A stretch of DNA of 64,000 nt from Mesorhizobium sp. BR1-1-16 (lineage in GTDB: Bacteria; Pseudomonadota; Alphaproteobacteria; Rhizobiales; Kaistiaceae), in assembly GCF_020165495.1 (NCBI RefSeq), contig NZ_JAIUIE010000001.1, positions 372,001 to 436,000 on the forward strand, written 5' to 3'. Shown piece by piece: positions 35,551-38,110 of the stretch (positions are counted from its first letter, which is position 1; each line of letters opens with the position of its first letter). Below the pieces are notes generated by a model. That model made no database searches. It was not told the origin of the DNA and was given only the letters and a program-made list of their open reading frames with translations. The position numbers were made by a program, and so were the translations under genes.

Positions 35551-35560
35551 GAAGATCAAC

Positions 35561-35589
35561 GGACGGCCGGCTCATCCGGCCGGCCGTCC
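35561..35589 (+). terminator. Hairpin after the Cys-rich protein gene
   Basis: A perfect 10-bp stem (GGACGGCCGG / CCGGCCGTCC) with a 9-base loop lies 10 bp after the stop codon. It has no T tract, so it is a weaker terminator or an mRNA-stabilising hairpin. Confidence 0.55.
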
Positions 35590-35881
35590 CGTCCAAGCGT
35601 GGACCGGTGCCCCCATTGATCGGTCACCGGCCCCTTCCTTCGTGGAATTACATCTTCCATCTGCAGCCCGGTTCTTTGCCGGCTGGTGCTGGGCAGCGCG
35701 CGGTGTCGGTCGTCTCGAAAGCCTTCGGCAATTGCACGAAAGGCTTCGGTGAACGCCAGCTTCGTCATCGAGAAAAACGATCGGATCGGCAGGATCTGGC
35801 GTGCCGGGTCCGACACTCCCCCCTTGATCGCGACAGCAAGTTGCGCTGGCATCGGCAATCGTCACTCATTCTGTGATCATC
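35590..35881. other. Gene-free stretch before the ECF42 operon
   Basis: About 290 bp without a supported gene. Overlapping open frames on both strands lack ribosome sites and family resemblance. The ECF42-type promoter follows immediately. Confidence 0.5.
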
Positions 35882-35908
35882 TGTCGGTCGGCGGTCGTGC
35901 CAATCGTC
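35882..35908 (+). promoter_or_regulatory. ECF42-type promoter of the DGPF-sigma operon
   Basis: TGTCGG, 17 bases, CGTCC, 27 bp upstream of the DGPF start. A TGTCGA -35 and CGA/TC -10 have been described for ECF42 sigma factors in Streptomyces. The same motif with the same spacing occurs before the VOC gene at 37580. Autoregulation by the downstream sigma factor is inferred. Confidence 0.7.
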
Positions 35909-35935
35909 CTAGCTTCGATGTGGAAGGGAACACCC

Positions 35936-36307
35936 ATGCTCTACGCCATCCTTTGCTATCATTCCGAAGATGTCGTTGGTTCCTGGACCAAGGAGGAGGA
36001 TGCGGCCGTCATGGCAAAGCTCGCCATCGTCCAGCAGAAGCTGGCCAGCGAGGGCCGGCTCGGTCCCGTGGCACGGTTGCTACCGACGACGGCCGCGACG
36101 ACGCTGCGCAAGGATCAGGATCCTCCGCTGGTTCTCGATGGCCCCTTTGCCGAGACCAAGGAGCAGCTCCTCGGCTTTTATCTCGTCGAGGGCGGCTCGC
36201 TCGAGGACATTCTCGACACGACGCGCGAACTCGCGGCGGCCAATCCCGGCGGGGCCTATGAGGTTCGGCCGGTCGGCGACTTCTTTCCAGGGGCATTGAG
36301 ACCGTGA
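35936..36307 (+). CDS. YciI-related DGPF-domain protein, ECF42 partner
   Basis: A 123-residue protein starting MLYAILCYHSEDVVGSWTKE, with the diagnostic LVLDGPFAETKEQLLGFYLV. GGAAGGGAA upstream selects the ATG at 35936. Its stop overlaps the GTG of the sigma factor (GTGA), so the two are translationally coupled. DGPF proteins are the constant genetic partners of ECF42 sigma factors; their biochemical role is not established. A second DGPF gene occurs at 24643-25065. Confidence 0.9.
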   Translation: MLYAILCYHSEDVVGSWTKEEDAAVMAKLAIVQQKLASEGRLGPVARLLPTTAATTLRKDQDPPLVLDGPFAETKEQLLGFYLVEGGSLEDILDTTRELAAANPGGAYEVRPVGDFFPGALRP

Positions 36308-37569
36308 CCGATATCGGCTGGATCGAGACGGCGGTTTCGGCGGCGCGCCCCAAGGCGATCAGCGCGCTGCTCCGCTATTTCCGAGACCTCGACATCGCCG
36401 AGGAGGCTTTCCAGGAGGCTTGCCTCAAGGCGCTGAATCTCTGGCCCCAGAACGGGCCTCCGCGTGATCCCTGTGCCTGGCTAATCTTCGTTGGCCGCAA
36501 CGCCGCCATCGATGTCGTCCGCCGACGCAGTCGCGAGGCCGAGCTTCCCGAAGAGGCGGTGCTGTCCGACCTCGGGGATGCCGAGAGCTCGCTGGCTGAC
36601 AGGCTCGACGACGCGCATTATCGCGACGATATCCTGCGGCTGCTCTTCATCTGCTGCCACCCTGACCTCGCCGCCACGCAGCAGGTCGCGCTGGCCCTCC
36701 GGATCGTCTCCGGCCTCACGGTGCCGCAGATCGCACGGGCCTTCCTGGTCGGGGAGAGCGCGATGGAACAGCGCATCACCCGCGCCAAGAGCCGGGTGGC
36801 AAAGGCGGGCGTGCCGTTCGAGACGCCAGGCCCGATCGAACGCGCCGAACGTCTCGCGGCAGTCGCGACCATGATCTACCTCGTCTTCAACGAGGGTTAC
36901 TCTGCCGCGTCCGGAGATATTGCCCGCGCGAGGCTCTGTGACGAGGCGATCCGGCTGGCGCGGCTGTTGCTGCGCCTCTTCCCGGCAGAGCCCGAAATTA
37001 TGGGCCTGACGGCGATGATGCTGCTCCAGCACGCTCGCCTTGCCGCCCGCTTTGATGCGGATGGCGCCGTCGTCCTGCTCGACGATCAGGATCGAAGCCG
37101 CTGGAACGGCGCCATGATTGCCGAAGGCCTTGCGCTGATCGACAAGGCGATGCGCCATCGCCGACCGGGATCTTATCTCATCCAGGCAGCAATCGCCGCG
37201 TTGCATGCGCGCGCCGCGCGACCGGAGGATACCGACTGGCCGCAGATCGATCTTCTCTATGCGACGCTGGAGCACATCCAGCCCTCGCCGGTGGTGACGC
37301 TGAACCGAGCCGTCGCCGTCTCCAAAGTCGCAGGACCTGAGGCGGCGCTGGCGATGATCGATCCGTTGGCTGATCCGCTCGGCGGCTATTTCCATTATTT
37401 TGGCCTGCGGGGCGCGCTGCTCACTCAGCTTGGGCGCGTCGACGAGGCGCGCGACGCCTATGATCGGGCGATCGCGCTGGCGCGGACAGCGCCGGAAGCG
37501 GCCCATATCCGCATGCATCTCGACCGTCTGGCGGCGTCGCCGGCAACGATACCGGCCTCCGGCGGTTGA
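36304..37569 (+). CDS. ECF42-type RNA polymerase sigma factor with C-terminal TPR-like extension
   Basis: A 421-residue protein. Region 2 (AISALLRYFRDLDIAEEAFQ and CAWLIFVGRNAAIDVVRRRS) and region 4 (LALRIVSGLTVPQIARAFLV, ESAMEQRITRAKSR) occupy the first 165 residues. They are followed by a helical extension of about 250 residues with ATMIYLVFNEGYSAASGD and VVTLNRAVAVSKVAGPEAAL. This long extension and the DGPF gene upstream define the ECF42 group, which has no classical anti-sigma factor; the C-terminal domain is thought to control activity. GTG start overlapping the DGPF stop. Confidence 0.93.
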   Translation: MTDIGWIETAVSAARPKAISALLRYFRDLDIAEEAFQEACLKALNLWPQNGPPRDPCAWLIFVGRNAAIDVVRRRSREAELPEEAVLSDLGDAESSLADRLDDAHYRDDILRLLFICCHPDLAATQQVALALRIVSGLTVPQIARAFLVGESAMEQRITRAKSRVAKAGVPFETPGPIERAERLAAVATMIYLVFNEGYSAASGDIARARLCDEAIRLARLLLRLFPAEPEIMGLTAMMLLQHARLAARFDADGAVVLLDDQDRSRWNGAMIAEGLALIDKAMRHRRPGSYLIQAAIAALHARAARPEDTDWPQIDLLYATLEHIQPSPVVTLNRAVAVSKVAGPEAALAMIDPLADPLGGYFHYFGLRGALLTQLGRVDEARDAYDRAIALARTAPEAAHIRMHLDRLAASPATIPASGG

Positions 37570-37579
37570 ACGGCACTTC

Positions 37580-37606
37580 TGTCGGTTCGCGACCCGTTTG
37601 ATCGTC
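37580..37606 (+). promoter_or_regulatory. ECF42-type promoter of the VOC gene
   Basis: TGTCGG, 17 bases, CGTCC. It matches the promoter at 35882 in both boxes, in spacing and in flanking bases (ATCGTCCT before -10 end). It starts 11 bp after the sigma stop codon and lies 53 bp before the VOC start, implying separate ECF42-dependent transcription. Confidence 0.7.
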
Positions 37607-37659
37607 CTTGCAGTGAAGCTGGCCGAAGCGCGGCTTGGCTCGACATGAAGGAGCAGAAG

Positions 37660-38075: not shown

Positions 38076-38110
38076 GAAAAACGGCGGCGCGGATCGCTCC
38101 GCACCGCCGT
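38076..38110 (-). terminator. Terminator of glnII
   Basis: Stem ACGGCGGTGCGGA / TCCGCGCCGCCGT on the minus strand (one mismatch, 4-base loop) followed by TTTTC. It also separates glnII from the convergent VOC gene. Confidence 0.75.

Follow-up and report, generated by a model that had tools for sequence, protein, structure and literature searches.

The ECF42 sigma factor of Streptomyces venezuelae, the subject of work by Liu in 2018, is said to carry a TPR-rich C-terminal extension and to read promoters with the boxes TGTCGA and CG(A/T)C. RpoE10 of Sinorhizobium meliloti is also an ECF42 factor. A 2018 paper (PMC6180224) described its motif promoters, among them that of the gene directly following sigma. 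It places TGTCGG-N17-CGTC at SMc01151 (YCII), SMc01149 and SMb20475, and reports that RpoE10 overexpression raised six genes, including SMc01149-SMc01148 and SMb20475-SMb20474. The SMc01149 start lies 8 nt past CGTCC (PMC6180224, Table 1); SMc01151, whose start overlaps the motif, is reported there as unchanged under RpoE10 overexpression. Pseudomonas putida ECF-10 is assigned to the ECF42 group with a similar context (PMC6180224; also named in PMC8999054).

We have analyzed a stretch of 64,000 nucleotides, hereafter the window, from a Kaistia genome deposited as Mesorhizobium sp. BR1-1-16 (C1:372001-436000). Neither a Kaistia regulon nor a comparable one was listed by our literature searches. 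The window resembles the published description of S. meliloti RpoE10 in having a YCII gene before the sigma gene and TGTCGG-N17-CGTC boxes, and an S. meliloti sigma that is 74.6% identical to that of the window adjoins YciI and SRPBCC genes, with both boxes at the locus. The gene after sigma, however, is of the SRPBCC type in S. meliloti and encodes a VOC protein in the window, and whereas six genes were raised in S. meliloti, the operon not among them (PMC6180224), we predict 11 sites in Kaistia. We estimate at roughly 0.87 the probability that the YCII(DGPF)-ECF42 operon of the window and its VOC gene are each served by a separate ECF42 promoter, within a sigma regulon of about eleven promoters.

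Layout of the locus and its two boxes

The features are collected in Table 1. The sigma gene starts with GTG and overlaps the YCII stop codon. Its product has the build of an ECF factor, with Pfam Sigma70_r2 and r4_2 as the only sigma regions and NCBIfam TIGR02937 above cut-off, and continues into a C-terminal extension of about 200 residues that matches DUF6596 (120.8 bits), while all TPR matches in it stay below their cut-offs. An adjacent YCII/DGPF gene and the group motif, in its TGTCGG form, 5' of its own operon complete the ECF42 picture. Both the box architecture and the extension resemble those that S. venezuelae ECF42 reportedly has. When the sigma was used in a structure search, no solved relative of the sigma part was found and designed TPR-like proteins were the sole matches. 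Several plasmids of Klebsiella, Escherichia and Acinetobacter are also listed with C-terminal ECF42 fragments (query residues 227-377).

Table 1. Features of the ECF42 locus, in window coordinates.
Feature	Position	Strand	Basis
P1, predicted ECF42-type promoter of the YCII-sigma operon, TGTCGG-N17-CGTCC	35882..35909	+	exact box at 92 of the 108 related loci
YCII-related (DGPF) protein, 123 aa	35936..36307	+	Pfam YCII, 1.6e-17; LDGPF present
ECF42 sigma factor, 421 aa	36304..37569	+	Pfam; 74.6% identity to an S. meliloti sigma adjoining YciI
Glu155 codon, in the helix-turn-helix of region 4; may set the sixth -35 base	36766..36768	+	inference
P2, predicted ECF42-type promoter of the VOC gene, TGTCGG-N17-CGTCC	37580..37607	+	exact after sigma in 45 of 108 loci; exact in 13 of 30 VOC relatives
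VOC (glyoxalase-fold) protein, 133 aa	37660..38061	+	Pfam Glyoxalase PF00903, 4.5e-13, over cut-off
Terminator-like hairpin after the VOC gene, ahead of a convergent gene for glutamine synthetase	38081..38110		

The earlier note had described two matching boxes with identical spacing. Both are present on the plus strand with a 17-nt spacer and share the flanking bases ATCGTCCT, although the end coordinates given there reach only CGTC, one base short of CGTCC. The gap between the end of P1 and the YCII ATG is 26 nt. From the end of P2 to the VOC ATG it is 52 nt, or 37 nt if a second possible in-frame ATG at 37645 is taken. By analogy with S. meliloti SMc01149, transcription would start near 35917 (P1) and 37615 (P2). 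The A/T tract 5' of the window boxes is weak (0.60 and 0.40), which counts against them. No AHSA1/SRPBCC-type gene was recognised 5' of YCII in the window (35552-35881); two other Kaistia (L061, L062) have a divergent gene of this type there, with its own box.

The loose pattern TGTCGG-N16-18-CGTC has six matches in the window, where 1.03 are expected and none of 100 shuffles reaches six. Since four of the six lie at sites other than P1 and P2, this pattern alone is weak evidence. The genome-wide search that the earlier note had proposed with it did reveal an excess (170 matches against 56 for the reversed pattern), but too many of the matches are coding, and we adopted N17-CGTCYT instead. In the 5.2 Mb of the genome, exact TGTCGG-N17-CGTC occurs 26 times (13 reversed) and TGTCGG-N17-CGTCYT 11 times (2 reversed), and base composition predicts about 1.3 occurrences of N17-CGTCCT. 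The 170 loose matches could be taken to mean that both boxes arose by chance in a GC-rich genome, but the strand and spacing of the boxes, their positions, the extended motif and their conservation make this exceedingly improbable.

Conservation at related sigma loci and VOC genes

Related loci were placed by tblastn. Removal of the window locus and two duplicates from the 111 found left 108 (27 and 80 from two genome sets and one further Kaistia) with no identical sigma genes among them; being the closest relatives (best matches), they are no random sample, and p-values ignore relatedness. An exact box lies 5' of YCII in 92 of the 108 loci, and 103 have one with at most one mismatch. The minus strand of the same zones yields three exact matches and four with one mismatch, and at least two of the three exact ones are promoters of divergent AHSA1 genes in Kaistia. 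Spacers of 15, 16 and 19 were never found upstream, and a spacer of 18 once. After the sigma gene, 45 loci have an exact box and 52 one with at most one mismatch, compared with no exact match and one with a single mismatch on the minus strand, and one N16 spacer. Both boxes are exact in 40 loci, and no exact N17 box falls within the sigma gene in any of the 108.

T is found at the second position past CGTC in 90 of the 92 upstream and 44 of the 45 downstream sites, with C or T before it in 77 and 43, respectively. The upstream spacers fall into 51 groups that differ at more than 4 of 17 bases, and an A/T tract precedes 77% of operon and 75% of downstream boxes, compared with 38-46% further upstream. 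Even with one mismatch allowed, five loci lack an upstream box (L061, L077, L079, L101, L106). The first is Kaistia soli, the closest named relative (sigma 95% identical to that of the window), where the operon box has the 18-nt spacer; these exceptions count against the promoter reading. On these sequence comparisons, the two window boxes are very probably ECF42 promoters.

The earlier note had also matched the boxes to the TGTCGA motif of Streptomyces and had seen in them a sign that the actinobacterial rule holds in an alphaproteobacterium. The ECF42-like architecture stands, but the sixth -35 base differs, being G in the window clade and A in the TGTCGA quoted for Streptomyces; TGTCGA-N17-CGTC occurs in none of the 108 upstream zones and in two downstream zones. 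One of four Streptomyces plasmid loci has a match, TGTCGA-N16-CGAC. Nor would the rule be new, because the S. meliloti RpoE10 work had made known both the alphaproteobacterial motif and a gene with its own promoter after sigma (PMC6180224).

The assignment of a separate ECF42 promoter to the VOC gene has fared better, being supported by the sigma loci and by the VOC relatives. A VOC match was present in 116 genomes, and 30 of these relatives were compared as loci. Thirteen have an exact box and 21 have one within a single mismatch, with none on the minus strand; five of the near-matches, all from one genus, share a TGTAGG form and so are not independent. The box is present in 20 of 23 VOC relatives from genomes with a sigma orthologue (our own included) and in one of seven from genomes without (Fisher p = 9e-4, relatedness ignored). 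Of the 20, fourteen are separated from the sigma gene by 11 kb or more or sit on another contig, and seven of the 14 boxes are exact. It is thus very likely, judging from sequence, that the VOC gene has its own ECF42 promoter.

The spacers of the operon boxes frequently contain a CATACT-like hexamer: T15, A16 and T18 occur together in 59 of 92 operon boxes and in none of 45 downstream boxes, or in 23 of 51 and none of 38 after thinning. The best sigma-70-like score, out of 12, is 6.41 in operon spacers, compared with 5.38 in shuffles and 4.59 downstream. The hexamer may act as a housekeeping -10, which would place a start within the CGTC box. Such elements, together with the S. meliloti gene SMc01151, reported as unresponsive to RpoE10 overexpression and with a start that overlaps the motif (PMC6180224), favor a scheme in which the targets comprise only the VOC gene and the scattered genes. 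The YCII-sigma operon would then depend chiefly on a housekeeping promoter for its transcription, with little or no contribution from its ECF42 box. However, the operon box has been kept with fixed spacing in most of the loci and P1 itself lacks the sigma-70-like hexamer; we consider this scheme unlikely and retain the reading in which P1 is an ECF42 promoter.

The predicted regulon and its distribution

Eleven of the 26 exact N17-CGTC sites in the genome run on as CGTCCT, and all 11 have an ATG 21-59 nt past CGTCC. Besides the YCII-sigma operon and the VOC gene, the predicted targets are a second YCII gene (L144) and genes for DoxX (L146), VOC (L148), DUF1428 (L150), MFS (L151), SDR (L154) and SMP-30-like (L157, below Pfam cut-offs) proteins and for two PF06983 proteins (L152, L153), which we take to be kin of the VOC proteins. 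In an automatic test for a start, defined as an ORF of at least 100 aa with Shine-Dalgarno-like bases, nine of ten CGTCCT sites passed, L153 not being among the ten, compared with two of 15 other N17 sites; two CGTCC sites without the T (L155, C25:743) have no such start. The ORF after the SMP-30-like site (G000:C24:329376-329402) runs for 134 aa before continuing in another frame, and its counterparts in three other Kaistia have 278-284 aa; either the gene is broken or the sequence contains an error.

Comparison of four Kaistia genomes, our own and three others with a sigma orthologue, showed the box kept in all four at the second YCII, SDR, SMP-30-like and VOC genes, in three at DUF1428 and the L153 protein, and in two at DoxX and MFS; the L148 and L152 boxes are found in our genome only. 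The three relatives, for which the contexts of 12 of 14, eight of 10 and 13 of 15 CGTCC sites were taken, also have a box upstream of a DUF899 gene (Pfam applied to one of them), and a divergent AHSA1-type gene is preceded by a box in both of the other Kaistia examined. Among the 26 CGTCCT sites off the sigma locus that were examined in these relatives, four resemble background (L256, L260, L263, L270) and one is ambiguous (L241). The earlier note had spoken of a small regulon of two promoters. Both boxes do behave like conserved promoters, but the extended motif precedes 11 units, and the regulon is therefore larger than that.

Activation of the sigma, whatever its signal, would probably proceed via the C-terminal extension. 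The active sigma would drive transcription of its own operon and the VOC gene, together with about nine scattered genes for predicted small enzymes or transporters from promoters of the form TGTCGG (-35), 17-nt spacer and CGTCYT (-10).

We counted TGTCGG-N17-CGTCYT and its reversed pattern in 249 genomes of the order, taking at least 57% identity as the mark of a sigma orthologue. The 53 genomes with an orthologue contain 453 sites against 62 reversed, and 52 of the 53 exceed the control. Counts are 23 against 13 in eight genomes with a relative of 49-54% identity, 27 against 57 in 51 genomes with only other ECF42-like sigmas, and 124 against 113 in 137 genomes without an ECF42-like sigma (rank test, orthologue group versus the last group, p = 3e-25, relatedness ignored). 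The motif therefore tracks the clade of the window sigma, not ECF42 factors generally. Within Kaistia, five genomes with the orthologue have 64 TGTCGG-N17-CGTCC sites and 12 reversed, and nine without it have 49 and 29. Two of the genus without an orthologue count against this pattern (G250 and G254, nine versus one and eight versus one); the one site checked in each is not followed by T.

Residue 155 and the sixth base of the -35 box

The genome encodes a second DUF6596 sigma of the ECF42 type (C1:299530-300735), 37% identical to that of the window. Given the likeness among ECF promoters, the two boxes could be read by another sigma, such as this one. Its own YCII gene, however, is preceded by a different box, TGTCGA-N17-CGAC-ATGG, common to three other Kaistia, and the TGTCGG motif is not in excess where a genome has only other ECF42-like sigmas; recognition by another sigma is very unlikely, and the sigma encoded between P1 and P2 is the one we favor. 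A separate regulon for the second ECF42 was considered and rejected: among 30 TGTCGA-N17-CGAC sites, only that of its own operon (L328) joined ATGG, an A/T tract and a YCII-like ORF.

Glu155 is present in all 109 sigmas of the window clade. It is also found in all eight sigmas of the group with 49-54% identity, where TGTCGG-N17-CGTC is exact in six and has one mismatch in two. An N17 box accompanies 21 of the 51 other ECF42-like sigmas (17 TGTCGA, four TGTCGT and no TGTCGG); the remaining 30 gave none. Glu155 requires two changes on a tree of 80 sequences. We advance its link with the sixth base as a hypothesis, because the residue has about one origin and marks essentially one clade. Ala155 sigmas inside the Glu155 clade (L294, L295), which offered a test by reversion, had no box that we could find. 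Residue 66 (Asn) was considered as setting the third -10 base and was rejected, Asn66 sigmas being found with both CGTC and CGAC.

Tentatively, and with rather less than even confidence, we put these observations together as follows. Glu155, in the recognition helix of region 4, would read G at the sixth -35 base and sigmas with Ala, Gly, Ser or Thr would read TGTCGA or TGTCGT, keeping the two Kaistia ECF42 paralogues apart. In many alphaproteobacteria the operon ECF42 promoter would in addition overlap a housekeeping promoter whose -10 sits inside the ECF spacer, and this would account for the unresponsive S. meliloti start; the Kaistia operon of the window, without this element, may be purely autoregulated.

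The general motif was already published, and the window is a well-supported added case of a known system. The observation of two boxes has become a testable regulon of about eleven promoters, in which the place of a target in the genome would not limit its recognition; VOC homologues far from the sigma gene carry the box too. If the link between Glu155 and base six is true, it would offer an easy way into the question of how cross-talk among paralogous ECF42 sigmas is avoided.
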